DNA from: Daphnia pulex | Lineage: Eukaryota > Arthropoda > Branchiopoda > Diplostraca > Daphniidae | DNA length: 64,000 nucleotides | Direction: 5' to 3' | NCBI RefSeq assembly: GCF_021134715.1 | Contig: NC_060022.1 | Location: 3,663,001 to 3,727,000 of the forward strand | Part shown: one piece after another, positions 11,597-55,100 of the stretch | How the letters are laid out: each line of letters starts with the position of its first letter | Numbering within the stretch: the first letter of the stretch is position 1 | Translations under genes and position numbers: made by a program | The notes under the pieces: model-generated | Told to the model about the DNA's origin: nothing | Databases searched by the model: none | The model's input: the letters and a program-made list of their open reading frames with translations, nothing else

Positions 11597-14500
11597 ATGG
11601 GTTTCCTGGCAGAAATTTTCAAGTCTTATGGTCTGTTTTGTGCTCAACACCCATGGCAAGTGATTTTCCTGGTCTTGACATCTACAGTAGCCATCATCAG
11701 CAGCCAGGGGATGCACACCCTGAATCGCGCGCGTGACTCGCTAGGTTCACCACAACCCCTAGACATAGTTCTAATGACGACAGTTCGAGCTGTTGCTGTG
11801 TTGTACAGCTACCACAGATTGCGTTCTTTACATCGATCCCATTCTAGATTTGTCTTAAGCTTGGCAGGATTGTTTACCGTCTTCTCCAGCTTTGTTTTCA
11901 CCTGCAGTGTCGTCAATGTTATGCAAAGCGACCTTTCTGATCTGAAGTAAGTAGTCCATATTCGTCTATTTTGTCTAACGAAAATTCATTTTTAAATTCA
12001 CTTATTAGGGACGCACTGTTCTTTTTCCTCCTTTTGATTGACGTGGTCAAGGCCTGCACTCTTGCTTACTGGTCTCTGAGTTGCTCGGTTAAAAATGCAG
12101 CCGAAGTGGCATTGTGCATCTCTCAAGGCATGGCTGTCCTCGGCCCTGCCATTACTCTTGACACCTTGGTTGAAACTCTTGTCATAGGTGTCGGAACGTT
12201 GTCAGGTGAGTTGCCAAAATGTTATTTATTGCTGTTATTTTTACTGATCTTGACAGTCTTTTTCGATTCTATTTATAATAGGGGTTCGCAGGCTAGAAGT
12301 GTTGTGCGGCTATGGATGCATGTCAGCCGTCGTCAACTATGTAGTGTTCATGACATTCTATCCAGCCTGTTTGGCCCTGGTGTTAGAGGTTAGTAAGATG
12401 AATAGTCATGATAGACATATTGATAACAACTACAGAGTACATTTTTTGTTTCCCTTTTTTAGCTGTCAAATAAACCAGAGGTGATTGACAGTGAAAACAC
12501 TGTTGTAGATTCTTGCAAGGTCGACCAGTCTACCGCTTTCCAATGGCAGCACCGTGTTAAACTTCTCAAACAAATGATGGCAATGGAACAGCCCAATCCT
12601 TTAGTTCAGAGAGTCAAACTTATCATGGCTGCTGGTTTGATGGTAGTTCACGCTCACAGGTAAATAGATGTAATCCTGAATATTTGTGTCATTTTCTGTT
12701 CTATTGTCATACAAAATTATCAGATGGCAAGGTTAAGCCACTTTTTGACAATTTGTCTATGTTGTTTTCACTGTTTTGTTGTTTGTTTGTTTTTTTCCGT
12801 TGCAGTCAATGGGTATTTTTACAAGATGGAAAAGTTTTGAGCCCTGAAAAGCCAGGGGCAACCTTCGGCTCAGCGTCTATTGTCGACGTGGCTGCGGAAG
12901 ATTCAGTGCTCCGGTAATATAGCTTCAAACTCATTCACTGTTTGTTGCGTGAATCAAATTCATTTTAAATATTTTATGTCACTATGTTAGGTGGCTTTCC
13001 GACCAACGGGCTGATCAGCTTGTCCTGTTAATTCTCATTGCAGCTTTAACAATCAAGTTTACCTTCTTCGACGATCGTAATCAAACTCCTCAGTCTTTAG
13101 AGAAATCTCTCCCAGCTTATATTCTAGAAGAGCCATCCCCAGCTGCCGCTATGGAAAAAGGTGATGCCGAAACTCTTGCAATCGCTTAATCGTATTTGCC
13201 AATTAGTTCAGAAGATAACCTAACCCTTTGCGAAAATTTTGCGTTGTTTCTTTGCAGTCGAAAGTCGCCGAAACCGCTGTGTATCATTTGTGATATCTGA
13301 TAACGAAGAATCGTCATTCGATGTCGAAGACAAAGAGGTTCAGACAGAACCGTGCGATGAAATGGAAGAAGACGAACAAGATACTTTGTACGTCAAACCC
13401 GTCACTCGTACTCTGGAAGAGAGTCACGAAGCTTTGAAGATTTCTGGCAGTGCAGTATCCGATCAAGAAGTATTGAATCTTATCAATGCCCGCAAGATTG
13501 AATTAAGGCAGCTGGAGAAGGTGTTGGGTGACGCAGAGCGCGGCGTCCGCATTCGCAGACGAGTACTCTCTACCATGGGTGGAACTCGCCTGGAAGATGC
13601 CGTAGTGCGTCTACCCTACAAGAATTACGATTACTCAAAAGTGTTTGGCGTATGCTGCGAGAACGTCATCGGCTATGTACCTCTACCCGTCGGTTTCGCT
13701 GGCCCGCTAATAGTGGACGGAGAATCCTATTTTATTCCAATGGCCACGACCGAAGGCTGCCTGGTAGCATCAACAAACCGTGGATGCAGTGCCCTTGCTC
13801 CCAATGGTGGTGTTAGAACGCAGCTAATCGCGGATGGCATGAGCCGTGGACCAGTTTTCCGATTACCCGATATTCGTAGAGCAGGAGACGTGATGGCATG
13901 GCTCCAAGAGCCGTCCAACATTGATTTACTGAAGAAGAGTTTCAACGCAACTAGCCGATTCGGCCGTTTGCAAAAAATTCGATGCCAAATCGCTGGTCGT
14001 CATGTATTCATCCGCTTTGTAGCCAAGACGGGAGACGCTATGGGGATGAATATGGTATCTAAAGGAACTGAAGCAGCCATAAAAGTGATACAAAGTCATT
14101 TTGCCGACTTGGCAGTGGTGAGCTTAAGTGGTAACTTTTGCACGGATAAAAAGCCCGCAGCGGTTAATTGGCTTGACGGTCGTGGAAAATCAGTAGTCAG
14201 CGAGGCCATTATTCCCGCGGCTATCGTACGCGATAAGCTCAAAACCAACGTTGCTTCGCTAGTGGACTTAAATATCACGAAGAATCTGATTGGATCCTCC
14301 ATCGCCGGCTCTATTGGCGGATTCAACGCTCACGCGGCCAATATCGTATCTGCCATTTTCATTGCCACTGGACAGGATCCTGCTCAAGTGGTGTCTAGTA
14401 GTAATTGCATGACATTAATGGAACCATGGGGTCCGGAAATGCAAGATTTATATATCTCATGCACTATGCCTTCGCTGGAAGTCGGAACTATTGGAGGCGG

Positions 14501-14865
14501 GACCTGGTTGCCGGCTCAGGGCGCCTGTCTTGATATGCTTGGTTTGCGAGGTATTGATCGATTACTTCTTTTTCCCCTCTTTCTTTCTTTCTCTCTTATC
14601 TCTTTTTCTTTTTCTTTTTACAAATGAGTTCTTCTTCTTCTCCATTTTTGTTTTTCCTCATTATAATATCTCAACCTTGCTTACAGGATCGAATGCGGAG
14701 GAGCCAGGAGCCAACGCCTGCCGACTAGCACGTATCATCTGTGCCGCCGTTTTGGCCGGCGAACTCTCTCTGATGTCTTCTCTGGCGACAGGCACGCTTG
14801 TCCAGTCTCACATGACGCACAATCGATCGTATGCCAACATAACAACACCATGTTTATCTTCGTAG
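11597..14865 (+). CDS. Hmgcr: 3-hydroxy-3-methylglutaryl-CoA reductase
   Basis: Membrane enzyme of the ER that makes mevalonate, the committed step to isoprenoids. In crustaceans it feeds methyl farnesoate, ubiquinone and prenyl groups rather than sterols. Eight exons: 11597-11946, 12009-12205, 12282-12388, 12463-12659, 12806-12913, 12991-13160, 13258-14550 and 14687-14865, 866 residues (human 888). The N-terminal 370 residues are multi-spanning and keep the sterol-sensing-domain layout ([33 protein letters not shown]). The catalytic part starts near residue 511 with [17 protein letters not shown]. Active-site elements are present: [28 protein letters not shown] and the C-terminal His in SHMTHNRS with the kinase-target Ser. 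At residues 70-73 the sequence is YSYH, where vertebrates have YIYF. Confidence 0.97.
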
Positions 14866-27152: not shown

Positions 27153-28831
<1,679 letters not shown>

Positions 28832-29008: not shown

Positions 29009-30632
29009 CGAAGATTTGTCCCATCGATGGGAAAGAATTAAAGAAAACGACATTAGCCGTTTTATTGTTACGACTACTTCATCACGGAACATGACAATTG
29101 ACAAGTAGCCTCCCATCTGCCATTTTATTACAAACCAAGCGCACTACGGAACGCCAAACGACGTTTTAGCACAAAAAGTCAATCTTTTTGTTCTACATAG
29201 TTCAAAATTCTAAAGATAGATGACACCACTAAACAAGTTCCGTCGCGGAAGTTCGTCTGCAGACTGCAGTTAAGTAACAACATAAACAAAACTCACGCAC
29301 ACGGACGGCACTAGACTCGTGTAGTCGTGTATCACATTCGTTTGGCTCATGTCATAGTGTCAGGTACCGTTAGGCCACAGCGAAGATTGTGAGGCTGTCA
29401 ACTCAGCACAATTGTATTAAAGTCGTAATCGTTTTATCCACGGGTGTCCTGTCGTGGTTGATACATTGAAGCATTCAAGTCAAAGAAACGTTTGAAACAG
29501 CACAAGATTAGCAGATCACATTGGTGCAAGAAGTGAGATCTTAACCGTAAATGTTGTTCACCTGCATTGAATATTCAATTTCTCCTTGCTGGAAAAGAAG
29601 TTTGTGCTATCTATAGGAAGATTTCATTCAGTGTGTCCTTTTATTGGGACAAAGTTATTACAGCTCTAATTCAACAACAGTAGGCCTATGTCCAAACTTT
29701 TCAAGTATAGTGCTGCATTAATACCTTGGGGATTTCGTCTGTTGTGATGTGTGATGCTGAGGTGGTGGCTTTTTGGTGAAGACGAGAAATAAATTTGGAG
29801 GGGAGAATATTAAGTGAGTATCAAAGTTAATTGTTGCCTTTCTTTCAATTGAATGTCAACAAGCTGGAGCAGACATTGTTTTCATGAACGTCAAACGTTT
29901 CGTTTTTCTGACGCTATACAGCCGTAGCCGTGATCATTTTCCGCTCAGTTTAATTACGTTTACTTTGCACATCTCTGGAGAAATTTCTCGCTGCTACTAT
30001 AAGAAACTTTTGTGTGATAGCTGTCAGTGTCTGATTCAGCAACAAAGCTCACTTGTTAGTTTTTAGTAATAATGTCCTTTTTTTTCTACTTCTGGTTTTC
30101 TTATTTCAGTCAGTAGTTCAGTAAATATTCATTCGACGCACAAAAGAACCACATATTCGTGATCCTCGTCAAATTTTTGGTAAAGTTCATGTTCTTTTTT
30201 GTACGTACGCGTACTTCCGGTTTCGAGAATTATCCTGAACTATATAGTTAAGGAAAATTCTGGATTTTTGCCAAATTTTGGATTTCGTTGTAATCACACC
30301 TAATCGACCCCAAATTTCATGGAGAACACGAATATTTGGTTTAATTTGATGGCAGCTCAATGGTTAAGGCGCTGTGGCTTACTTCTGGTATACTTCCGGA
30401 AAATTTGCATGAAAGTAGCAAGTAAACTTTGTTCTCTGTACAATTCTAAGGATTGAATGCTAGGTTTGAGCAAACAAACAAAAATGCCTTTTTCAAGTTT
30501 TGTGTATATCTTAAGACTAGTCCTTCAAATACTGAGTTTTGAGACGTGTCAAATAGATGGCGTGTTCATTGTGTTATGGGATGGCAGTTTGCTGTCAAAA
30601 GTTAAGCTATCCTTTCTTCGACAATTACCAAC
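29009..30632. other. Intergenic region before the palindrome
   Basis: Low-complexity AT-rich DNA. I see no supportable exon. A tRNA A-box-like string (TGGTTAAGGCG, about 30,361) lacks a matching B box and foldable arms, so it may be a decayed tRNA-derived repeat. Confidence 0.4.
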
Positions 30633-31842
30633 GAATTCATAGGATAATTCGAGTGATTTCGTCTCTAACTTGTCGGTGATGTGTTCTATTCCGTGTATAT
30701 GTTGGATAACCTTAATGTTTCTCATCAACTTATAGGAGGAAACATGAAAGGGTCGTGGCCGTCGTGCAGCCACCGTCAACTGTGTTGTTCAAAATTATTG
30801 TATTCTACTGAATGTGCCATCGAAATGATACAGGTAACAACCAACACTAGCTTTATCCATTTCATGTATTGCTGAAACATGTATTCTTCTCGTCTTTTAT
30901 TAGGTATTATCTGCTGTTTGTATTGGACTTGCTAGATCACCAACCCCAGCATAGACCAATCTCTCATTTCTTCTTCTCGAGAAAAGATTGGATAACTGAT
31001 TGGTGGTTTCATGTGCAAGTTCACTTATCATGTCACTGAACTTTTTCCGTTGCAGTCTAATGTGTATTTAAAGTATTGATCTCCACTTATGTCTATCTAA
31101 TGTTTAAGAAACGCTTTTCAGTGTATATTGATAATTGTTTATTCTTTTAGATCATAGACGTCAAGCACATTGATGACACAAATTATAAACAAGTTGACTT
31201 ATTTTTCTTTTTTTAATTACAGGTTCTAAACTCCAAATTTAGTCATGTCCTTTCAACAAAGTCAACAAGGTCCCTTGTTTACTAACCAGTTGGCTGCTAC
31301 CCTTGAATCTCCCTTTTTACTTTCATAAGCGGGGCATCTTTATTTGAGGTATTGCTTTCTGTCGCTACAATCTTGTTTGAAAATTATTGTCATCCAAATA
31401 AATGTTCATTCTGCTTACAGGGTAATCCTTCGCTATTTGTCGTGGACTTCATCCACTGGTGAAAACCGACGAGAATGCTGTAATCCAAGACTGATAAATT
31501 GTGTAGTTAGATTCAATTACAAGTGCATTTCTGGGCTCCCTTCTTTTCTGTGGCCCCGTTTCCCTAACTAACCACTAACCAACGCCCGCCGGTGGTCACT
31601 CACCCGCTGTGAAACCAGGAGGAGGGGAGGGCTCTGGTCGAACGGGGACTTGGAAGGCGCATGATCCGATGAAAACTTTTGGAGGGTCATGAGTCTAACC
31701 CGGAAGCCTAGTATGACTACATCTCCCCAGTAAAACTTGCCTCGTACTTCTCTCTTCTTCTCGGTCCAGATAAATATCTCTGGGGGCCGTAGACATATCC
31801 TATAACAGCATGTGCGAGTTAAAACAAAGCAACCCACTACCC

Positions 31843-32208
31843 AATGAAACAAAAAGCCATGGTTTATTTTTTGCGGAAATCTGCATCAGTCAAGTTACAA
31901 ATTTTTCTAATTCAACAACTCGCGTAGAATTTTGCATCTAGTCTATTAGTGCGAATCGCGATTCCATGTGTTTGGTAGTTTAGAAAATGGTTGTTTAAAA
32001 AACAAACAATGGGGTGTTCTGGGTAGCCAAAAAAACTCAGCATTGTTTGTTTTTTAAACAACCATCTTCTTAACTACCAAACACATAGGATCGCTATTTG
32101 CACCAGTAGACTAGATGCAAAATTCGACAGAAGTTGTTGAGTTTGAAAAATTTGTAACTTGATTGACGCAGATTTCCGCAAAACTATACCATCGCTTTTT
32201 GTCTCATT
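31843..32208. mobile_element. Foldback (hairpin) element, MITE-like, inside the left arm
   Basis: Two inverted arms of about 168 bp (31843-32010 and 32041-32208) flank a loop of about 30 bp. The inner ends are perfect for about 28 bases (through TTGTTTAAAAAACAAACAAT and complement). It encodes no protein. The family is unknown and target-site duplications are unclear. Confidence 0.75.
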
Positions 32209-32349
32209 GCCGCAGCGGTGGTGGCGGGTTGCGTTTAAACTCGTACAGAAGAAAAAACTCTTGAACCGGACGCTCTGTTTATTGAATTTTTTGTACATTT
32301 AAAAAAAAAATAATAAAAACTAGTGTGATGTATTAAATTTTTTTATTTA

Positions 32350-32515
32350 TTACAGACATAGGGTTTGACATTGGTTTATATGGTTTAGGGTATAAATTTG
32401 AGGGTTGGTAGGTGTATGTTTGTAGGGTCTGAAGAATTGGAAGGTGTAAGTTTGTGGGGTTTGGAGATTAATTGGTAGGGATATGTTTGTAGGGTTATAA
32501 ATTAACTGTTTTTTA
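32350..32515. repeat. Degenerate G/T-rich short repeats (left arm)
   Basis: Imperfect units of about 30 bp around GTTTGTAGGGT / GTTTGTGGGGTTTGGAG. The reverse-complement version sits in the right arm at about 35560-35710. The TAGGGT core looks telomere-like, but the units are irregular. Confidence 0.6.
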
Positions 32516-33558
32516 ACCAAACTTGAAATATCCCCTTTCCACATCCTCCTCTTTCCTTTCCCAATCCCGAAAACATGTTTATTATTTGTTTGACATAAAC
32601 ATCCCCATATTTCTTTTTTGTTCCTTCTTCACATATTAAAGGTAAACTACATTGACACAATGCCAATTTCATAAAATAATAATGCAACTTCGGTAACACG
32701 ACACCAGCACCAAGGAACGGCCAGTTGAATTTGATGCAGAAAGATCTATCACCAGCATAGGCTGCAAGCCTGCAACAACGTACCACAGCGGACAGCAACT
32801 ACGCGAACATACACGATAAACCTGTAACCGAAATGAAATTAATTAATCTTCACCATCAATGGAAATGCTGTCTGAAAAGACAAATTAATGACACTTTATG
32901 TGGTTTTAGTTAAACCAAATATTCTGAAAACAATATCTGATAGCTATTGTTGAAACAAAAACAAAGTGATTTAAACTACAACAAAGAAGAAAGAGAAGCT
33001 AAGACTTTAACTGATGTTTAAACCTGCTTAAAAAATCAATTACTATCAAGCAGTAAATTCTAATGCGATAATAACAAAAATGACAGAAGTATAGCACTAT
33101 AGCTAAACTATGAAACCACTCAGTGTTAGTTAGCAATCTTTTTGAATCAGCCAGACAATTAGAAAGTTGATTGAAATAATTACTTCAGTTGTTCATGTTT
33201 CTTCATTTGACGAAACACACAGCAGTACAGGGTAACAAGAGGAACACCCTTTACCAGCTGGCTGCATCAAATGTGTTGTGTTGCATGTGTTGGGCAGCAA
33301 AGACGGAGCTCAGACTTTCCAGACTGTCTATCAAAAAAAAAAAAAATCAATTACTATCAAGGACACAGCGTCTCAAATGACAAAAACAAAAATGACAGAA
33401 GTTAAAGTTAACTACACAATCCTTTGGAATACATTTTGCAAAGGATCCTACAGCTAGCAAGCTTTTCCAAAGTAGACAACTAAAGTTCTACAACAGGCAA
33501 GTTAAGACATAGTCACCAACTAACAAAATCTCACAGTTAGAAAGTTGAACATATTTAC

Positions 33559-34135
33559 CTGATTTGTTCTGAAGTGTTTCTTACAAAACGCCGGCTTCTC
33601 ACTTTTCAATGCTTGGCATTGTCTCTCAATAGTGGGTCGTGTCAAGTGAAGAAAGTTGGGGATCTTCATCAACTCTGCATTGGCAAATTTACCAGTTGTC
33701 CCTTGAACAACCCAGCCCTGATGCAAGGGTAGCGGTACACTAGCTGGATGGAAAGATCTGGCAACTGGCCAAACCTAGGGCCAGTCTTGATCAGTTGGCA
33801 TTTTGATGGAACGTGGAGGATGAACTGCTGCTCTCTTGAATACTTTGCGTCCGTATGATCTGATATTCAACGACTTGTTGTGACTCAGATTCAGCACGGA
33901 ATTTGTCATCTCCTAACAAATTTTAACAGAAAGCCGGTTACAGCACATGCCATTCACGTGTAAATTATCTAATGATACTAAGCGCCAGTTTGAAAAGATG
34001 AAAGTTACCATCCACTTTTTGAATTTCTTCATTTTTTGCGAAATGATGTGGCCATGTGGGATAATTAGAAATGGGTCTAATTGACACAAACTGTTGAAAA
34101 TTGCGGAAAACACGTAGGTTGACAATGGCAGACAT
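33559..34135 (-). pseudogene. mRpS35: Broken copy of mitochondrial ribosomal protein S35
   Basis: Minus strand, two exon-like parts: 34135-34009 (MSAIVNLRVFRNFQQF...) and 33912-33559. The second carries the S35 signatures PPRSIKMPTDQDWP, PVARSFHPASVPLP and LMKIPNFLHLT. Breaks: the two parts need a frame change within the second exon to reach KMPTDQDWP, and an in-frame TAG follows DWP where the family continues. The stretch after QCQALK appears shortened before CKKHF. Nothing downstream of the donor at 33559/33558 continues the protein. It occupies most of the spacer of the palindrome, and its last 32 bases belong to the repeated arm. Confidence 0.8.
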
Positions 34136-34527
34136 TTTATTCGACTTTTCTTCACTCTTTTTTAGCAGACTAAAATATAAGTTTCATCGCCATCTATGAT
34201 TCACATTTTAAACTACTGATATGGAACAATAAGTCTTCGTTACGCAAGACCGCCGCCATTTTTTTTGCGAGCATTGAAAGCGTATCGTTAGATAATCTGT
34301 ACGGCGTATTTTCCTTCTCCATAGTTTTCTTCATAAAAATGGTATTTCCCGTTTGGATTGTTAGATGTTACTGAATCTTGGTTATTTGTGTGTGAATTTA
34401 GTTATTTGTGTGGTAACCTAGCCTATAATTTCTACTTGGAAATTCCAGCTGATTAAGTGGCCTGAGCAGAGCCTGAGCATCTCTACTTTTTGCCAAGATG
34501 TCGTCTACTTTTCCTGTACCGGCTGTA
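34136..34527. other. Right part of the palindrome spacer
   Basis: Unique DNA upstream of the mRpS35 pseudogene start, containing CCGCCGCCATTTT near 34,250. A short plus-strand open stretch starts at ATG 34498 and runs into the right arm to a GT donor at about 34,560; it has no recognisable relative and is probably chance. Confidence 0.4.
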
Positions 34528-35559
34528 CGTTTTGTAAGAAACACTTCAGAACAAATCAGGTAAATATGTTCAACTTTCGAAATGTGAGACTTAGTTAGTT
34601 GGTGACTATGTCTTAACTTGCCTGTTGTAGAACTTTAGTTGTCTACCTTGGAAAAGCTTGCTAGCTGTAGGTTCCTTTGCAACATTTAATCCGAAGGATT
34701 CCGTAGTTAACTTTAACTTCTGTCATTTTTGTTTTGTCATTTGAGACGCTGTGGTCTTGATAGTAATTGAGTTTTTTTTTTAGTGATAAACAGTCTGGGA
34801 AAGTCTGAGCTTCGTCGTTGCTGCCCAATGTACACATGGATTTGATGCAGCCAGCTGGTAAAGGGTGTTCCACTTGCTACCTGTACTGTTGTGTGTTTCG
34901 TCAAATGAAGAAACAACTGAAGTAATTATTTCATCAATCAACCTTCTAATTGTCTGGCTGATTCAAAAAGTTTGCTAACTGACACTGAGAGATTTCATAG
35001 TATAGCTATGCATGTGTCATTTTTGTTATTATTACTTGAGAATTTACTGCTTGATAGTAATTGATTTTTTTAAAAGCAGGATTAACACCAAGTTAAAGTC
35101 TTAGGTTCTCTTTCTTCTTTGATGTAGTATAAATCACACATTTCGGTTTTGGTTTCAAAAATAGCTATCAGATATTGTTTTTCAGAATATTTGGTTTAAC
35201 TAAGACATAATTTTCATTGATGCTGAAGATTAATTCATTTCATTATGGTTATAGGTTTCGCGTTCATGTTCGTGTAATTGCTGTCCGATGTGGCACGTTG
35301 TTGCAGCCTATGCTGGTGAAAGATCTTTCTACATCAAATTCAATTAGCCGTTCCTTGGTGCTGATTTTGTGTTACCGAAGTTGCATCATATTTTGTTAAA
35401 TTGTCATCGTAACTATGCAGTTTACCGTTTATAAGTTCAGAAGCAACAAAAACAAAGATGGGATGTTTATGTCAACAAATAATAAACATGTTTCCGGGAT
35501 TGGGAAAGGAAAGTGGAGGGGAGAGAGAGGATATTTCAAGTATGGATAAAATTCCGTGA

Positions 35560-35710
35560 TTCTATAACCCTACAAACGTATCCCTACCAATTAATCTCCA
35601 AACCCCACAAACATTTACCTTCCGATTCTTCAAACCCCGAAAACATACACCTACCAACCCTTGAATTTATACCCTTAACCCTATAAACCAATATTGAACC
35701 ATAACCATGT
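35560..35710. repeat. Degenerate A/C-rich short repeats (right arm)
   Basis: Counterpart of 32350-32515, here read as CCCTACAAAC / CCAAACCCCACAAAC units. Confidence 0.6.
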
Positions 35711-35860
35711 AATATCTGTAATAAATAAACATAAATATATTACATGAATCACTTTTTATTTTATTTTTTAAATGTTCAAAAAATTCAATAAACAGAGCGT
35801 CCGGTTCAAGACGGTTTACTACTGCACGAGTTTAAACGCAACCCGCCACCACCGCTGCGG

Positions 35861-35969
35861 CAATGAGACAAAAAGCGATGGTTTAGTTCTACGGAAATCT
35901 GCGTCAGTCTTTGTAACTTGACTGACGGAGATTTACGCAAATAATAAACCATGGCTTTTTGTTTCATTG
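35861..35969. mobile_element. Internally deleted remnant of the foldback element
   Basis: Keeps only the outer 45-50 bases of each hairpin arm (caatgagacaaaaagcgatg ... catggctttttgtttcattg). All inner arm sequence and the loop seen at 31843-32208 are absent. The flanking arm sequence matches on both sides. Confidence 0.8.
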
Positions 35970-37202
35970 GGTAGTGGGTTGCTTTGTTTTAACTCGCACA
36001 TGCTGTTATAGGATATGTCTACGGCCCCCAGAGATATTTATCTGGACCGAGAAGAAGAGAGAAGTACGAGGCAAGTTTTTCCGGGGAGATGTAGTCATAC
36101 TAGGCTTCCGGGTTAGACTCATGACCCTCCAAAAGTTTTCATCGGATCATGCGCCTTCCAAGTCCCCGTTCGACCAGAGCCCTCCCCTCCTCCTGGTTTC
36201 ACAGCGGGTGAGTGACCACCGGCGGGCGTTGGTTAGTGGTTAGTTAGGGAAACGGGGCCACAGAAAAGAAGGGAGCCCAGAAATGCACTTGTAATTGAAT
36301 CTAACTACACAATTTATCAGTCTTGGATTACAGCATTCTCGTCGGTTTTCACCAGTGGATGAAGTCCATGACAAGTAGCGAAGGATTACCCTGTAAGCAG
36401 AATGAACATTTATTTGGATGGCAATAATATTCAAACAAGATTGTAGCGACAGAAACCAATACCTCAAATAAAGATGCCACGCTTAAGAAAGTAAAAAAGG
36501 AGATTCAAGGGTAGCAGCCAACAGGTTAGTAAACAAGGGACCTTGTTGACTTTCTTGAAAGGACATAACTTCTCATTAAGTCTGCCATACAAATTTCGAA
36601 ACCTGGAGTTTAGAACCTGTAAATAAAAAAAGAAAATAAGCCAGCTTGTTTATAATTTGGGTCATCAAATATGTGATCTAAAAGAATAAAAAATTATCAG
36701 TATACACTCAAAAGCGTCTCTTAAACATTAGATAGACGTAAGCGGAGATCAATACTTTAAATACATATTAGACTGCAATGGAAATAGTTCAGTGACATGA
36801 TAAGTAAACTTGCACATGAAACCACCAATCAGTTATCCAATCTTCTCTCGAGAAGATGAAATGAGAGATTGGTCTATGCTGTGGTTGGTGATCTAGCAAG
36901 TCCAATACAAACAGCAGATATTTATGACTCCTAACACAAGACGAGAAGAATATATGTTTCAGCAATACATGAAATCCATAAAGCTAGGGTTGGTTATTAC
37001 CTGTATCATTTCCATGGTACATTCAGTAGAATACAATGATTTAGAACAAAATAGTTGACGGTAGGTTGCACGACGGCCACGACCCTTTCACGTTTCCTCC
37101 TATAAGTTGATGAGAAACATTAAGGTTATCCAACATATACACGAAATAGAACACATCACCGACAAATTAGAGACAAAATCACTTGAATTTACCTATGAAT
37201 TC

Positions 37203-39822
37203 ATTGAATTCCTATGAATTCTTGGGGCCGTGATGGAAATCTTGAATGACATCGGGCTAGATGCTTCACTCCGTGATACGGTCGAACTCAATTGACAGTA
37301 ACTTAAGATGAATTTCATACCCTTAGTGTTTCTAGATTAGTTGAAAAGAATAAAATGCTTATTAACTATGGATTCGAAAAGAAATAAAACAATTCCTATT
37401 ACCTGGTGTTTAAGGCCTATGGCATAATGGGACGTGATAACGTTTGGGCAACGGAGAACTTATGCGACAAGTTACATTTGCGGGGGACTCTCCTTATTGG
37501 CGCCTAGTCCTTACTGAGGTCAAGAGGATTGCTTGGGTACAATGGTCTTCATGTATCCTGCCCAACTTGAAAATCCCCACAATGCCAGTCTTAGAGCGCG
37601 TCTTTGATCATCGTTGCTTGAATAGTACCGTAATCTTAAGGACCTCCGCGGCAACAGTTCCTTCGTCATCTTCAAATATGTTCTTTCTGGCTGCCAGCTT
37701 CTTCGACAATGATGCGTATGGAAGAAACCAGTACTTGCGCCCCTGTCGGTCGTAACCAAAAGATTCCATAGTCTAAAAACAAAAATGGGGAATTTTGTTA
37801 ATATATTCAGAAAATGTTATTTCTATTTAATGAATATGCACATCTAAGAGTCACAAAGTCACCACTCATTAATTTTATTGCTCATGTTGTAAGAGGATAA
37901 GCAAGATCGAATTGTTTTTGTTTTGATTTCATAGTTAGCAGTTGATTGCATACGGTGAAAACTAGGCTGCCTGTAGACAACCCTGTATTTGTTTGAGGTA
38001 CACCAAGGTTGACGTTCTTCTCAGTGATTGGCACTTTTCTTCAGCAGTGAAATGATCTTTGTTGCAGAACATGGAAATATGACACATGTTGATTCCCATG
38101 TAGACTGGAATTCTTGTTATTTCAGGGAAAACATGGTGTTTAGCAGTTTATGTGGGTAGGCGTGGCTGCTGACATGGGAGTATGTTTTCATTGCTGGATT
38201 CTTCGTAAACAGAGGCATCTTCAACTGTCACACTGCACTTGAACATCTTAGATTTACTGTTGGACAAACAGAACAAAATAATCTTGTAGCACTCTTTTTC
38301 CCAGCTTAGAGATATATCAAATTCAGGTAAAACTATACATGCCTCAATTCTTGCACCAATGTGATCTGTTAATAACGGGTTGTTTGTTCCTTCATTTGAA
38401 CAGTTTCAACCACGTGTAAGGAGGGGAAACAGGTAATACGACTGGGCAATTGATAAAAAAGAAAACTTTGCACGAACGGATTTGATAGTTCATTACCAAG
38501 TCCTCACTTTAGTCCACAATGCAAATTAGGCTACTGACATTTTTATATTACACCGCACCGTAAGTAACGACCGATACGAGTGGCACTGCAGACGAACTTG
38601 TCTTGTCATTTCTAACAATTCAGTTTGTCGTTGCTAGAGGGCAGCTAAATAGGATTTGAAATGTGTTTGCTTCATAGATGGCGTCTGGGAGGCATTTTGA
38701 AATCAAGGTTACTATTTTGTTAATGTTACGTTAGTTCTTAGTTGAAACACGGTCTGGTTGAAATTTAACAAAAACAATAAAACTACGGCGTACGTAAGTG
38801 TAAATTAAAAATAATAAGATCGCTTGTTTTTTTACAAGCAATAATTGCAAGTTCGTCGATTCATTAATAATGTAACGTTATAACTCGACGGAGAACTCCT
38901 TTTCATTACGTCAGTAACAAATATAAAATGGCGGCCTCGTACCGATCCCATTTGAAACCAAAACCGATCCCATGTTCTATACGTCCATTTTATTTTTAGA
39001 CCGATACTTACAGATCGAATATATTCAGGGAATGAGTCAAAGAAAATAAAAGAATTCATCCGCTGAAAATTCCTTTTGCCATTTATTGATTTGTGTGTAA
39101 TTTCCTTTCAATCAACAAAGACACGCTTGTATATCATTTAGTTTAAAGGGGAGGGAAATGGGGAATAAAAACCAACACGCACACACGGGTCTGTAGTAAT
39201 GGTAGTAGGACGCAGAGTTATGTATCAATGGACAGCAACAATCACAATCAATCAGGGTATTTTTTTTCCTTTTTTATGTTTAGAGCTCATTCAAAAAATG
39301 TTTTCCAAAAAAATAAAAACAACCGATAACAAACACACAGACTTGGAAACACTGGACGCACACGGCACGCAAAATATCAAACAAAAAATTATTCCCATCT
39401 GGTTTTCTTTCTAATATTATTATTTTTTTTGTTGTTAATTTCTTTAAATTTTTTTTGTTTCACACATTAACAAAATCGTTTGTCGACAATATCCCGCACT
39501 GGTTATTCGAACCGGCGACAATTAAACAGTAGAGTTCATGTATACTTTAATTTAAAACAAAAAATTTGTTTTTGTTTTCGAAATTTTTGTTTGAACTTTT
39601 TTCTTTTTTCGATCATAAATAAATAATATTCTGGGAATTCCGGTTGTGCATATAATCAAGAAAACAGGAGCGCCACCGGAAAGTGAGAGATTGAAATAAC
39701 CATCCGCAATTTTCTTTTTTTTTTTTCCTTCTTCTTTCACCGCAGAATAGTAAATTGAATTCAATTTGGCTGCGTTATTGTCTAATTTACACACACAAGT
39801 TGTGGGAGATTGATTTTCCGGT
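37203..39822. other. Gene-poor region and probable tailup 3' UTR
   Basis: Apart from the NURF301-like remnant I see no supportable exon. The segment next to tailup (about 39,060-39,822) is A/T-homopolymer-rich and is probably its 3' UTR; a minus-strand AATAAA lies near 39,078. Confidence 0.4.
37620..37772 (-). pseudogene. Remnant resembling the chromatin remodeller NURF301/BPTF
   Basis: Minus strand, after an acceptor-like TTTTTAG: ESFGYDRQGRKYWFLP, then a disrupted stretch to IFEDDEGTV, then in another frame RYYSSNDDQ. Together they resemble the GYDRxGRKYWF ... VEDDEG ... YYSS segment of NURF301/BPTF. Frame changes, an in-frame stop and the lack of neighbouring exons mark it as a fragment. 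The family assignment is from memory of the motif and is tentative. Confidence 0.42.
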
Positions 39823-46100: not shown

Positions 46101-49100
46101 CCAGGGCCTTCCAGGGCGGGGCGAAGGCGTGCACTTCCACCGGATTGATCCCGCCGCCACCTCCGCCTCCTCCGTTGCCTCCGCCTCCTCCACCGCCGCC
46201 GACGCCACCACCGACGCCGCTGCCTCCGCTGGGCGACGACTCGCCGTGCCTGACTGGACTGGACGCGATCAGCGGGATGCCTTGCATCGAACCAAAGCCC
46301 AGCTTCCTTCCGTCCTTTTTGTTTTATAAAATTTGTTTCGTTTGTAATTCAATTTTTCGTTGGTTTAACCACCCGAAAAAAGGGAAAAAGAAAAAAGAGA
46401 GAGAGAAAAAAAGGACAAAGATAATTAGAATTAAATTTGTCATTTTCCAAATTAACTCAAAATCAAATGTAAAAACAAAACTTCTTTATTTACGTTTGAG
46501 ACGGACAAAAATAGATAATAATAATTATTATAAAATCATTTGAAAATTTTTTTAAAAAATTGGAAGGTCATTGAAAAAAGAAAATTTCAATTTACTGGTG
46601 TAAAGTCTTGTGCGCTTGAAAAAGAATGAAAATGTACAGTTATTTATTTATTTTTAAAAGTTTCGCTGTTTGTGCGTGAAAAAAGGGAAAAAATAAAATT
46701 AAAAAAGTCGGAAAGTTTTGCTTTGATGAGTCGTGCAAAGGGGAGGGAGGGAGGAAGGAAGGAAGGGGGTAATGGAACGACAGACAAAACAGACAGAGAC
46801 AAACACAGTAGTGGGAGATATAGAGGGAGCGGCCAAGCATCAAAATCGTCGGGCAGTTGGCTGCTGCTGCTGCTGGTCGGCGTTTCTTTTTAGTCAAAAA
46901 CACGTCGACACAGCAGACAAAACGATCATCATCACAGTCCAGCGGTGGAATATTACGTGGAGGGGTGGGGGGCTGTTTATAGATGGATAGTTTTCTGAAG
47001 GAGCGACTGGGTAGAAAAAGGCCAAACTCCACACACACAGACGAACCGAGTGCTGTTATTGTTGTTTTCCCCGTTTTGATATGCAAGGCGAAAGGATCGG
47101 GAGGGTGGGGAGGAGGAGGAGGATCGCTATTGTATAAATCCATTACGGTGATTGCGGTGCATTCGCCGAAGGGAAAAGTCTCGGATAAATAGAGAAAAAG
47201 GGGAGAAAGAGAGACGAGTCCATTTAGGCGATGAGTTTTTATCGATTCGACCAAAAACCTTCCCCCCACAGTCGGCCCGGCTCCGGCCAAAAAAATCCTC
47301 AGGTGCTTTTTATTTTTATTTTAGAATTTTCCCCATTCCTAAATGATATTTTTCACGTCTAGTCTGCAACCCCCCCCCCCGACCCGGATGTTGTTGTTAT
47401 TTCATCCGATTGATTCAAAGTAGGAATTCAATTTCAAAAAAAGAAAAAGGAAATTTCATCTCAAGGCGAAAGGATCTGGCGAGTAAAATGGCGATGCGAC
47501 CATGGGATTCCTCACTTCGATTTGATCCTCCGAGTCGCAGTCGTGCGGATGATGATGGACATGAACGGAAGCGTGCTGCGACTGGGACTGTTCCATCATC
47601 GCCCGTATGTGGTAGTAGGTGTTGCAATTGCCCGTCGAGGAGGCCGTGGTGGTGGTGGTGGTCGTGTAGTGGTCGAGGTGAGTAGGATGGTGAGGATGGT
47701 GAGTAGGATGATGAGGATGGCCTACCTTCTCTTGCTGCTGGATCTGCTTCATCAGGATGGCCTTCTTCTTGTCCTTGCAGCGCTTGTTCTGGAACCAGAC
47801 GCGGATCACCCGCGGCGACAGGCCCGTCATCTCCACCAGCTGCTCCTTCATCAGGGCGTCGGGACGGGGATTGGCCGCGTAGCAGGTGCGCAGCGTGTGC
47901 AGCTGCTTCTCGTTCAATACCGTGCGGACTCGCGTCGGCTTGCCGTCCGACCCGCCGCCGCCGCCGCCGCCAGAGACGCCGCCCGACCCGCCGACGCCGC
48001 CCATTCCGCCTTTGCTGTTGCCCGCCCCCCGCGACCGCTCGCCGCTCTCCTTCCGCGTCGACGTCGTGATGCAAGTGTCGGAACTATCTGGAAATTTCAA
48101 AAGAAAAAAAAGAAAAAAATTCAAAATTGTTATTCAAATAAATCCTAAATCAATATCGTTTTTGTATTTAGTTTGGGCTAAAGATATTTTTATATTGTGC
48201 GGCGGTGAGACCGACTGTCACTGGAGATCCTTTTGTCAACATATTGACGCTCGCCCAATATTTGAAATGGAGTCGGCCAGCCGGCCACACACACACACAT
48301 CATGTTCCAGTCCATTTTGTCGGGGCCGGCCCTATCAAAATTCACCGGCCGCCGCTCAATTCGTGTTTTTTCAGAGGGGGGAAAACTGTTTGCATATCGG
48401 CCGAGTTATAGACACACACACACAGAGGGGAGTTATATAGGATATTATGAAAGGGGGTAAATAGAATACATAAGCCTACAAGTTGGCGTGACTCGCTCAC
48501 GATCCTATCCAACAGCTGACTAATGTCTTCATTTCCTATTCAACCCCGCGCCCCTCCTATGACTCCCCGCTGACTTCCAGTGCAGCACACCGACAACAAA
48601 CACATCAGAGTTGATATCATATCTCCTACTACGCGTATTTGGTCTGCTTGTTGTATCTAATAATTCTTTATTAGGTCGCCAGTATTATTAGACGCTCGGA
48701 CCGTCGATACGTTCGGCTCTCAACCACCGGCCAAGAGATAACTCCCAGTAGGCCCACACAAAAAAAAAACGGCCAGAGAGAGAGGGGGGAACAGCACACA
48801 CACACACAACCAACCCGCAACATACACACAACTAATGGTCGGACGACACGCCAAAGTTCTCCCGACGGACAGACACAGGCTCCATCAAAAAATATAGGGA
48901 GGCACACAACCCTCCTCGCTCTCCTCCCTTCCGATATGTGTCATGTTGTATAGGAGCTAGGAGGAAAACCCAGTGCCAGCCCAGCGTGTTTATGGCTACC
49001 ATATTATCATATTCCCCAGTGTGTGTGGGTGAGGGAGGCCTACGTGTAGACGAGAGTCGATATAGACAAGAGTTTCGGGGGCTTGTGATATAGACGACGA

Positions 49101-52100: not shown

Positions 52101-55100
52101 CAAACATAACTCGTTTGGTTGAGTGGCGGGGAGGCTCAGTTACTACCCATGGAAACGAAATATACTTAGGCGCTTATCCTTTGATATAATCTGATGGAAT
52201 CCCCCTTGAAATGATAACTGTGTGTAGTAACGTTATATAATAACTTGATCCGGGCGTTGGCCCCCCTGAACCAGTAATACTTAATAATAATTAGGAGCTA
52301 GTGCAAATCAGATTTATCGAGTCCTACCTGAGTGGGAGTCGTTGCTGTTGGCTCGGCTATGGCGTCCACTGCTCGATTCTGTCAAGTCAAATAATAAAAT
52401 TCGATTGATTAGTTCTTCTTCTTTTGATTGGCACGCTAAAGGCCATAAGGTGACGTCATAATTTTGAATTGAAATTTTACTGTGGCTTTTGACGCTGCTG
52501 TTGCTGATGGGCAGGAAGGAAACGGTGCCACTGCTGCTGTTGCTGCTCTGATTGTGGTGCTCGCTCTTGGCCTCCAGCAACATGAGCGACGAGCTGTTCT
52601 GCCCGCCGCCGCTGCCCAGGTGATGGTGGTGGTGGTGGTGATGATGGCCGTGGTGGTGGTGATTCCCGCCGTTGTTGTTGTTATTCTGATTGCTGCTGTT
52701 GTTGTTGTTGTTGTTGGTCTGGTCGTGGTCGTCCTTGCAGAAGAGGTTGCCGTCGTCACGCAGGGCAAATTCGTCGCCCGGCACCAACTGGCGCTGGCAC
52801 AGGGCGCACCGGAAGCACTCGATGTGGTAGATCTTGCTCTTGGCCCTCATCACAAAGTCGGAGCGGCTGAAGCCCAGCCCGCACTTGTCGCACTTGGCAC
52901 CAAACAACCTTTTGGCCCAATTGCAATCGAATCAAATCAAATTAAATGATCCCGTCACGAAATTGAATGAAATGTTTTATTATAGGCCTATGGCAACCTT
53001 TTGATTGGCTGTTTTTTTTATTATTTGATTATTTGATTTGTTACCTGACGTAATCCCGGCGGCAGAAGGTCTTGCCGTCGCGGACGAAGCAGGTGCAGTT
53101 CTCGTCCAGGAAGATGCCGCACTCGACGCACTTGAGGCAGGAGGCGTGCCACTCCAGGTCGGGCGCCACCCGCAGGATGTACTGGTCCTGGATCGGCGAC
53201 CCGCAGCCCACGCACAAACTGCTGCCGGACGTCGCAGAGTTATTGACGCCCAGGCTTCCGACTGCGCTGTGACTGGAAACGGTGCGGACCGGACCCGGGA
53301 CCGAAGACGGGACGATGGGACCGGGACCGACGGACACGGCAGCGGCCACAGTCACGGCCGACACCGACGAATGGTGCTGCTGCAGCGGATGGTGGTGTAG
53401 GTGGTGGTGATGCTGCCCTCCACCTACTGCGAAAATTAAAAATTTCATTTCATTTATATGAATTCATCTCAATTTTGATCTAAAATCATCAAAGTTACAC
53501 ACAAATAGGCCCCCGGGACAAAAATGTGAAAAATGGAATTCCGGTGGGAGGGACCATAGAATAATATCTCCCCCACACATTGTGTGTTTGATCAACTCCT
53601 TTTTATTTTTTTCGGTGATGAATGAACCACCAGCAGTTCATCAATTTCACGTCCGATAGAGTTCACCAGAAGGCCTATACTTATATGTACCGTAGTTTAT
53701 ATATCAGATTATTCCTAAGGACAAACGATTTGAGCCTACAAAATATTATTGATGACACGTACACAAAAGGAAAAGAGAGAGAGAGGCCTACGTCAATATT
53801 ATAGCGAGTAAAAGCGCTGAATCACATCATCAATAATCGGAGCCCAACAACTTTTCGTAGGTGGGAAAACCAACCCCACACCAAAATATATTTTTTTAAA
53901 TAAAGAAAGGAGCGGGGTGATAAATAGATGGACATAGTCCCTGTCATCGGCTGGGGGGGGGGGGGGGGGTTGGTTTTATTTACCCTCGTCTCTCTCCTCT
54001 CTTGTTTTTCCGGCTAATTGCTGATGGCCCTGGCCCTGGCTCCTGCTGATGATGTACTTTCGCTATATATATGCCCGTCCGTGCACGCGCCGGTATAGTG
54101 CCAGCCCCCCCTTGTCAACCCTCCTGAGGGCTATCGCACCTTTTTCTCTGCTCTTTTGTTCTCTCATCATTCGACCCCCCATCAGGGCAGGGCTAAACAG
54201 CTGTCACCAGCTGTGTGACTCTATGGGCCTATGCACAGTTCCCACACACACACCTATAGAAAGACTATCCAATTGATTTGGTTCCACCTTTTTCCTTTTA
54301 CCTGCGTCATAAATTTTAATTCACATTGAAAATAAAAAAAAAGGTGGGGGATTGAATTTCAATTGCGTCATTCGTTCGTGACTGGTGTGGCTATTCTGGG
54401 CTTCAAGACACATGTCTGCAGGGGGGGGGGGGGGGAGCTGGTATACACCGAGCGCACACAGACGTAGAGAGTCTAATATGTGTAACTCTGGTACATGCAT
54501 AAGATTCTTTCGGGGATCCGGACCACCTTAGTCGTCCGTGGTGGGTGACGGGCCAGCAGCAGTCGCAGGCGCCACTGTCAAGTTATGGACGTGATAAGCA
54601 TCGCCCGCTCTTCCTCTTCCCTTTTTCGTCTCTTTTTCTTCTTCTTCTTCTTCTTCTTCTTCTTCTTCTTCTTCTATACACAAAAAATCTTTTTTTCTTT
54701 CTTTCTTTGACTTTTTGTCTTTCCTTCTATCCTGTGTGTGTATACCCCAGCGCGCCTAATGTCTCTTCATAATGATATCTTTTACCTTTTTCTTTTTTTT
54801 TCTTGAATTTTTGACTGTTTTTAATTTTCTCTAATGGATTGTGTAAACGGAATATTTTCCGACGACCCAACTATTAAGCGCGCCAACGATTTGAATTTTT
54901 AAATTTCCCACCGAAAAAAAAAAGATTTCTTTTTTGTCGCTTGTATCAGGAAGTCGATTTTATTATTTTAAAAAAATTTGTTGTTGAAAATTTCGTGAGG
55001 AGATGATTTTGTTTTATCGTGTGGGAACTCGGGGAGATTATGTCAATCATATATTTCCAATGCCCAGAAACCCGAGCCGGAAGATAAGGCAATCCTCCCC

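Follow-up and report, generated by a model that had tools for sequence, protein, structure and literature searches.

A worn Daphnia pulex palindrome with mismatched arms belongs to a dispersed family of foldback-like repeats sharing a near-invariant 195-bp core

The window analyzed here, a 64,000-nt stretch of Daphnia pulex contig NC_060022.1, contains two long repeat units facing each other across a spacer (Table 1). The units were paired in inverted orientation as two blocks, 30629-31901 with 35910-37206 (1308 columns, 91.9%) and 32161-33590 with 34528-35909 (1455 columns, 84.1%), both at E = 0, so the matches are not due to chance. The inverted-match search confirmed the giant inverted repeat with its 937-bp spacer (33591-34527) described in the initial annotation, while the accompanying claim that the arms match over their whole length held for these two blocks and failed for 31902-32160, the inner part of a hairpin nested in the left arm, which had no collinear counterpart in the right arm. 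The repeat itself does not start at 30629, as the unit extended outward to about window position 29715 at other loci; a weak inverted match of 67% was left over between 29495-29638 and 38262-38385. An assembly artefact was judged unlikely, since the arms differ by 8-16% and many loci, including some on other contigs, have a like architecture.

Table 1. Features of the palindrome in window coordinates
Feature	Position	Strand	Basis or remark
Outward continuation of left unit	29715..30628	+	Common to other loci, not retained on the right side here
Left arm, one repeat unit	30629..33590	+	Inverted match; plus is the reading direction of the intron-like motifs, towards the spacer
Intron-like gap, 72 bp, GAG|GT ... 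TTACAG|G	31349..31420	+	Scripted motif search over copies
Core, left arm, 195 bp, non-coding	31533..31727	+	Copy alignment; GC 57% vs 35% in flanks
Nested long hairpin, left arm, 456 nt, -256.8 kcal/mol	31808..32263	+	Folding
AATAAA after hairpin, A-rich surroundings	32312..32317	+	Motif match; weak poly(A) evidence
84-aa open stretch, part of mS35 exon 2	33520..33774	-	mS35 chains, E 7e-13, residues 1-58 of 84
Spacer, 937 bp	33591..34527	.	Copies, whole or partial, at many sites on several contigs
mS35 exon 2 of pseudogene fragment, one in-frame TAG stop	33591..33855	-	Sequence reading and relatives
mS35 exon 1-like start, ATG at 34135, MSAIVNLRVFRNFQQF...	34010..34135 (low end approximate)	-	Position before exon 2
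Exon-like start of opposite reading: ATG, 20 codons, then donor-like CAG|GTAAAT	34498..34559	+	Motif match
Right arm, second repeat unit, inverted, other subfamily than left arm	34528..37206	-	Inverted match, arm comparison
Short hairpin form, right arm, 197 nt, -87.5 kcal/mol, without inner part	35807..36003	-	Folding
Core, right arm, 0.0% from left core	36084..36278	-	Coordinates derived from 29-mer match at 36204-36232

Sequence similarity identified the spacer as a broken, duplicated piece of the host gene for the mitochondrial ribosomal protein mS35 (MRPS35). The 84-aa open stretch is joined at about 33591 to a tail unrelated to mS35, which is followed by a donor-like CAG|GTAAAT at 33559/33558, and the exon 1-like start was assigned to mS35 because it is located ahead of exon 2, an arrangement also seen in loci L052/L053. 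The spacer had 95 candidate sites in the genome, 40 of which were scored, and mS35 sequence was present in it at this locus and at most sites where it occurs. A search for mS35 requiring at least 40 matched residues returned 37 distinct sites, 34 of them coinciding with spacer copies; matches outside the spacer list were found at C8:11401574 and C8:11402378, which face each other, and the match at C2:2094322 was weak (E 0.39). The genome searches revealed no separate parental mS35 gene distinguishable from the repeat family. At the loci P3412 and P3277 the mS35 exons lie within the inverted arms, while in the window they lie mostly in the unpaired spacer. A promoter scan of the spacer returned none, using a bacterial model that is not meaningful for animal DNA.

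Searching 133.2 Mb of the genome in 13 contigs yielded 609 candidate sites for the arm, which ruled out a unique locus; 40 of the 609 were scored and all were strong. The initial annotation described neither this family nor its near-invariant core. The inverted-pair architecture recurred at other sites among the 20 fetched stretches examined, and the family arms often formed inward-facing pairs: of the 237 exact copies of the core described below, the first 100 gave 12 pairs of neighboring cores no more than 10 kb apart, and every pair faced inward. The palindrome belongs to this scattered foldback-like family as a worn copy with mismatched arms, and the family's repeat unit is 3-5 kb long and mostly non-coding. 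A downstream variant formed a subfamily of 36 copies, with 23 on C1, six each on C9 and C10, and one on C4. Regular spacing along the chromosomes was rejected (coefficient of variation on C1 0.94, against 0.61-1.22 under random placement). A coding unit was likewise rejected, with no codon-phase signal and no Pfam match for the arm's own open stretches. The upstream peptides of three remote copies belonged to no Pfam family, and one of them had nine matched stretches, some next to other cores. No description of the repeat was found in the open-access papers searched, a search that did not cover Repbase-type repeat libraries.

Repeat copies normally decay evenly over their length. In 37 copies of this repeat, the 195-bp core had a mean pairwise difference of 0.61% with 11 of 195 sites variable, compared with 9-11% divergence just upstream (10.68%, 100 of 200 sites variable). 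Homologous sequence surrounds the core, which does not sit at an end of the repeat, and its edges are sharp on both sides. A 37-mer from the core was found at 357 genome sites with up to three mismatches, 237 of them exact, compared with 16 sites for a flank 37-mer and none for the reversed-pattern control. The core was less than invariant in remote copies, which differed from the window by up to 4.1% (L047) and in one comparison from each other by 5.7% (L047 and L050). Both core samples are biased towards conserved copies, because the eight remote copies were chosen at sites with an exact 37-mer and the match sample was the best 40 of 430.

All three plus frames and two of the three minus frames of the core had early or several stops, the remaining minus frame being 51 codons long, and no codon-phase signal was detected in 311 windows (best p 0.069). 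The core did not fold more stably than its shuffles (z +0.75 and +0.56) and had no Rfam match at E values up to 5, which tells against a structured RNA; 31400-32300 had no Rfam match outside the hairpin. A SINE would be expected to have a Pol III (tRNA, 5S or 7SL) head and a LINE-like tail; ARAGORN, as a bacterial-code scan, found no tRNA gene in the window. A known RNA, a tRNA and a stable fold were rejected on these results as identities of the core. One exact 23-mer of the core was absent from viral contigs, in one of eight possible scans.

The intron-like gap ahead of the core was conserved: in 37 of 44 copies a GAG|GTR donor was followed by a pyrimidine-AG acceptor, for the most part 70-74 bp away; these splice calls, like those of AATAAA, are pattern matches. 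The upstream homology of remote copies did not end exactly at the acceptor in all cases, some being about 80 bp longer. Adjoining the core, the nested hairpin was far more stable than expected (z -24.5, none of 100 shuffles as stable) and was kept, in its long or short form, in all 22 hairpins folded. Across 11 copies, 32 of 148 stem pairs were maintained with both sides changed. Rfam matches of miRNA type on the hairpin fell below the family cut-offs. To judge from these motifs, core and hairpin are arranged as if they formed one exon after a short intron.

Among 12 comparable loci, the partner arm was the closest relative in eight, differing by 0.00-3.57% while the next closest differed by 1.5-14.4%. 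In the remaining four, which include the window, it was not: the arms of the window were 11.1% apart, and its left arm was 4.8% from another locus. The palindromes P696 and P1138, with common inner ends, were 92% alike between loci and 99.6-99.8% within. The arm comparisons strongly suggest that arm-to-arm gene conversion has kept many pairs alike, and the earlier proposal that the palindrome promotes conversion fits the family but not the window's own pair. The two sides of the core also had different relationships. The copies L044-L047 were 0-1% apart downstream of the core and 17-36% upstream, while L044 differed from the window by 13% upstream and 32% downstream. These comparisons strongly suggest that 5′ and 3′ portions have been traded between units, with the core as the point of exchange.

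We lean towards reading the palindrome as a mismatched member of a foldback-like family whose unit resembles the end of a transcription unit, with a core under selection and a dispersal by duplication or a mobile mechanism. Each unit would comprise a short intron followed by an exon with the 195-nt core, the long hairpin and AATAAA, and two units stand opposed around the spacer, with the mS35 piece inside at this locus and most spacer sites. Arm-to-arm conversion would keep the arms of many pairs alike, and the core would be where 5′ and 3′ parts pass between units. We infer that selection maintains the core, which most likely either belongs to an RNA or serves as a DNA site needed for the spread of the family, and recombination there probably adds to its uniformity. 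The family itself presumably spread by duplication or some mobile mechanism. Against a mobile mechanism, all 27 non-redundant open stretches of at least 110 aa from the fetched loci, which sample a family with several hundred further copies, were scanned and yielded no domain of a transposase, Rep or helicase; the fetched DNA showed no common outer end, palindrome limits varying by locus and true ends possibly lying beyond it, and no target-site duplication was found at the palindrome ends examined there. What stands out is how little 195 non-coding bases have changed across hundreds of scattered copies, where they adjoin a covarying hairpin and sit within palindromes whose arms apparently convert each other. 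If selection holds the core, a model crustacean would possess an RNA or chromosomal element not recognised before; were conversion the sole cause, sequence exchange between cores on different chromosomes would be surprisingly high. The clonal and sexual lines of D. pulex would allow selection and conversion to be separated directly.

Helitrons are marked by a Rep/helicase protein, TC...CTRR ends and insertion with no target-site duplication, and they typically carry captured pieces of their host. The captured mS35 piece, the hundreds of dispersed copies, the inward-facing pairs and local subfamilies such as the 36-copy downstream variant would all suit an ordinary non-autonomous DNA transposon of Helitron, Mutator or P/foldback type, with the core as a cis part for transposition. 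This is possible, if somewhat short of probable. According to the survey outlined in PMC2884549, D. pulex has Mutator and P families as well as Helitrons in hundreds of copies, the latter recognised partly by palindromes and tandem arrays; the present repeat, compared with those Helitrons by description and not by sequence, shares the copy number, with no Rep or helicase domain found in the 27 stretches and no termini identified. Paired inverted ends of constant polarity, as in foldback or long-TIR elements, were present (the 12 inward pairs above), but a shared terminal sequence and a target-site duplication were not found in the fetched DNA. The Galileo-like elements portrayed in PMC3573991 similarly combine kilobase inverted arms, structural variation and exchange between copies, whereas the Daphnia arms carry a nested hairpin and a near-invariant core, with no transposase or shared outer end found. 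The core also lies amid homologous sequence instead of at a terminus, the outer ends differ by locus, and in immobile copies a cis part would be expected to decay at the pace of the flanks. The V, CORE and other highly conserved domains of SINEs, as presented in PMC6887750, are likewise short, non-coding, of unknown function and embedded in fast-changing repeats, but the Daphnia unit is kilobases long, has the hairpin and intron-like frame, and is accompanied by no tRNA gene in the window on the bacterial-code scan.

By its predicted fold, the nested hairpin would be a better candidate for a hairpin RNA than the giant palindrome, and we regard the 197-456-nt hairpin as a possible, though not a likely, source of siRNA or other double-stranded RNA. 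Its stability, its retention in every hairpin folded and the two-sided stem changes would favor such a role, but inverted repeats in DNA can stay self-complementary through templated repair with no RNA function needed, only the long form has the inner stem, and miRNA-type matches below cut-off are expected from any long hairpin.

A stronger version of selection on the core, which we consider rather unlikely, would make it a functional non-coding element held across chromosomes in several hundred dispersed copies while its surroundings change. It would then be either a new multicopy RNA, whose transcript is spliced and ends in the hairpin, or a site in chromosomal DNA that serves pairing, recombination or domain organisation and doubles as the joint for swapping unit halves.

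It is more doubtful still that the core has no function and owes its uniformity solely to GC-biased gene conversion at a recombination hotspot. The GC content of the core (57% against 35% in the flanks), the reshuffling of upstream and downstream parts there and the homogenised arms of 8 of 12 pairs agree with such a process. PMC8981503 and PMC3723533 describe GC-biased conversion in palindromes of the primate X and the human Y. Those mammalian palindromes also resemble several family members in arm identity above 99% with divergence between loci; the Daphnia palindromes are much smaller (arms 3-6 kb), form one many-copy family and involve no known sex chromosome. Against conversion alone, exact core copies occur on different chromosomes in unrelated flanks that offer little homology for conversion tracts, the core is sharply bounded on both sides, and close relatives among the copies (92-96% alike) show no matching homogenisation of their flanks.

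Very improbable is the idea that the whole 6.6-kb palindrome gives one multi-kilobase hairpin RNA feeding endogenous siRNA: the arms are 84-92% complementary, and mS35, in the spacer here and within the arms of P3412 and P3277, recalls the target-gene fragments of Drosophila hpRNAs (PMC10317233), but mS35 is mostly unpaired in the window, an inward-reading unit would reach the AATAAA at 32312 before the spacer, and the exon-like starts in the spacer point outward. Transcription is predicted to exit the spacer outward because the start of the mS35 fragment reads left and the other right, and this anatomy would speak against a single transcript over both arms. The Drosophila hpRNA loci (Nmy, Tmy and others), so far as PMC10317233 sets them out, have no described counterpart of the conserved core, and the Daphnia repeat differs in predicted transcripts that run outward or end before the spacer. 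Both consist of inverted repeats with host-gene fragments that change rapidly and are, in places, multicopy.

Aligning the window (C6:3663001-3727000) against itself recovered the giant palindrome of the initial annotation, with inverted arms around a 937-bp spacer, but the arms did not match along their whole length as had been claimed, because the left arm contains a second, smaller palindrome whose inner part is missing from the right arm. An ORF scan found no reading frame of at least 150 aa inside the palindrome, and the neighbouring genes encode HMG-CoA reductase, collagen, and LIM and homeodomain proteins, a set consistent with an animal genome. A weak inverted match outside the palindrome is perhaps an older outer part of it.

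Features of the window (strand in brackets; flanking exon names and positions paired in the order reported) and mean pairwise differences among 37 repeat copies
Feature	Position	Value
HMG-CoA reductase coding exon	13239-14627	
Collagen coding exon	27239-28348	
Homeodomain coding exon	47456-48124	
LIM coding exon	52314-52907	
Outer inverted match	30629-31901 / 35910-37206	91.9% identity
Inner inverted match	32161-33590 / 34528-35909	84.1% identity
Smaller palindrome	31811-32247	
Weak inverted match	29495-29638 / 38262-38385	67% identity
Upstream of core	31221-31420	10.68% difference
72-bp gap	31349-31420	
Just upstream of core	31421-31532	8.59% difference
Core	31533-31727	0.61% difference
Downstream of core	31728-31810	4.71% difference
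Hairpin	31808-32263	5.35% difference
Segment at and beyond hairpin end	32248-32300	7.83% difference
Block within hairpin	31930-31960 and 32090-32120	
Flank 37-mer	32592-32628	
mS35 match (-)	33520-33774	
Exon 1 ATG (-)	34135	
Exon-like ATG (+)	34498	

The palindrome belongs to a repeat family with a conserved core. Searching the genome (133,188,837 bases, 13 contigs) with the left arm's outer 2.4 kb returned 609 candidate places; the best 40 of these were scored, most of them aligning to the greater part of the query at 84-94% identity. They lay mainly on C6 and were mostly arranged in pairs, plus copy first and minus copy second. When the window's pieces were mapped onto 20 fetched stretches, the palindrome layout was found again on C3, C4, C6, C8, C10, and C11, often with arms extending outward past the window's limits, and partnerless single arms were present on C5 and C7. 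Since the outer limits vary between loci, the ends of the element could not be defined. Close to the C5 single arm lies a 491-codon open stretch (L035:1263-2735) with no Pfam match. Locus P696 (L017/L018, C6:694500-710500) contains a further palindrome at its centre; the open stretches of this nested palindrome are acidic, of low complexity, and without a Pfam match.

Conservation along the arm was flat at 80-92%, except in the core, where 11 of 195 sites varied among 37 copies versus 100 of 200 upstream. With a 231-bp core-region query, all of the best 40 of 430 candidates matched over 231 of 231 bases, 24 of them with the highest score and the remaining 16 just one step below it. A core 37-mer occurred at 357 places genome-wide with at most three mismatches (237 exact; reversed-pattern control 0), versus 16 for a single flank 37-mer, a count that other flank words could change. 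Among the matches listed, cores lay on C1-C7 and C10; core-bearing fetched arms were also on C8 and C11, and a downstream variant of the repeat unit also on C9. All 12 neighbouring core pairs within 10 kb, among the first 100 exact copies, faced inward (plus then minus); random inverted duplication would produce the outward order too. The GC content was 57% in the core versus 35% in the flanks. Stop codons close five of the six core frames; the sixth stays open for 51 codons, with an insertion disrupting it in at least one copy (L050). Across the repeat unit, 311 windows showed no codon-phase signal (best p 0.069). On both strands, the core's fold was no more stable than those of shuffled sequences (z +0.75, +0.56), and the core had no Rfam match.

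Eight remote copies were chosen from the exact 37-mer matches, and their cores differed by 0-5.7%. Downstream of the core they fell into two classes 32-35% apart, with internal differences of 3-7% (class A) and 0-1% (class B), and the upstream grouping was different: upstream, L044 differed from the window by 13% and from L045 by 31%, although downstream L044 and L045 differed by 1%. Class B comprised 36 copies (C1 23, C9 6, C10 6, C4 1). The conflicting groupings and these counts suggest that halves were swapped at or near the core and that subfamilies are concentrated on certain chromosomes; as judged from these comparisons, the exchange is well supported. Upstream in L051, a 39-aa exon-like stretch of no Pfam family ends just before the core; it also adjoins two other cores (C1:8085644, C1:8197588) and a few other places.

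The gap upstream of the core has the edges GAG/GT and TTACAG/G, and both splice-like sites were present in 37 of 44 copies, including six of the eight remote ones, by a loose-rule script whose acceptor in P22 was a different AG from that of other copies. The core would be preceded by a putative intron and sit in an exon-like context. Downstream, a 456-nt hairpin folds at -256.8 kcal/mol (z -24.5), and energies for C1 hairpins go down to between -320 and -368 kcal/mol. When 11 long hairpins were aligned, both sides of 32 of 148 pairs had changed with pairing kept in at least one copy, but most of these changes reflect a single split between C1 copies and the others, with few independent events. 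Since templated repair can also keep inverted DNA repeats alike, this covariation is no proof of RNA function. Inside the long hairpin, the block TTTGCACCAGTAGACTAGATGCAAA is kept in both classes' long-hairpin copies and missing from short-hairpin copies.

An arm tree was built from 27 arms past a length filter (1381 columns, module excluded), which removed P22, P9980, P11753, P15058, P11089, and one arm each of P2950 and P1864. The partner arm was the closest relative in 8 of 12 loci, with differences of 0.08% (P696), 0.00 (P3529), 0.15 (P2013), 0.00 (P1138), 0.07 (P1323), 0.22 (P4685), 1.54 (P4119), and 3.57 (P1224). The exceptions were P3412, P3277, P3129, and the window. P3129 and P3277 have arms in common, 0-0.15% apart, and look like duplicates of each other. 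The palindromes of P696 and P1138 share an inner end point and are 92% alike between loci versus 99.6-99.8% within each, which a common ancestral palindrome with later arm homogenisation would explain better than two recent inverted duplications. Arm-to-arm gene conversion, which the initial annotation had raised for such palindromes, is thus well supported within the family, but not by the window's own pair, whose arms differ by 11.1%, the left grouping with an mS35-rich C6 group and the right elsewhere.

Taken together, we lean slightly towards the following picture: a duplicating or mobile repeat would be built of inward-facing units, gene conversion would act between its arms, recombination at the core would exchange 5' and 3' halves, and the core itself would be under selection as RNA or DNA. 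Family membership and the conservation of the core are demonstrated; a transcript, this selection, and mobility are what we infer. A transposase-like domain was absent from all 27 non-redundant open stretches of at least 110 aa in the fetched loci, a sample from a family with several hundred more copies. Published accounts offer parallels for single parts of the system: hpRNA loci with host gene fragments (PMC10317233), foldback transposons (PMC3573991), converting palindromes (PMC8981503, PMC3723533), SINEs with conserved domains (PMC6887750), and D. pulex Helitrons (PMC2884549). The literature searches turned up no account of the combination, above all of a near-invariant core present in several hundred non-coding copies dispersed over the genome; it may already sit unremarked in a repeat library.

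Residues 1-58 of an 84-aa stretch match the mitochondrial ribosomal protein mS35 (E 7e-13), as does a longer relative in L027 (E 4.4e-17), and inner arms of the C6 group contain more mS35 exons (PF10213, 2.7e-9; PDB, 3.5e-6). By these matches, the window's spacer is a fragment of this host gene, and its exon 2 carries an in-frame TAG. The start of exon 1 and another exon-like start point away from each other, and any transcripts should therefore exit the spacer on both sides. A genome-wide search with the spacer mS35 exon gave 130 matched stretches and no distinguishable separate parental gene; nearly all matched places were spacer copies of the family, and thus the working mS35 gene may itself lie within one. 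In two C3 stretches (L052:785-1180, 131 codons; L053:753-1163, 136 codons), the same mS35 start is fused in an open frame to a homologue of window 30760-30837 in the opposite orientation, giving chimeric mS35-to-repeat-arm open stretches.
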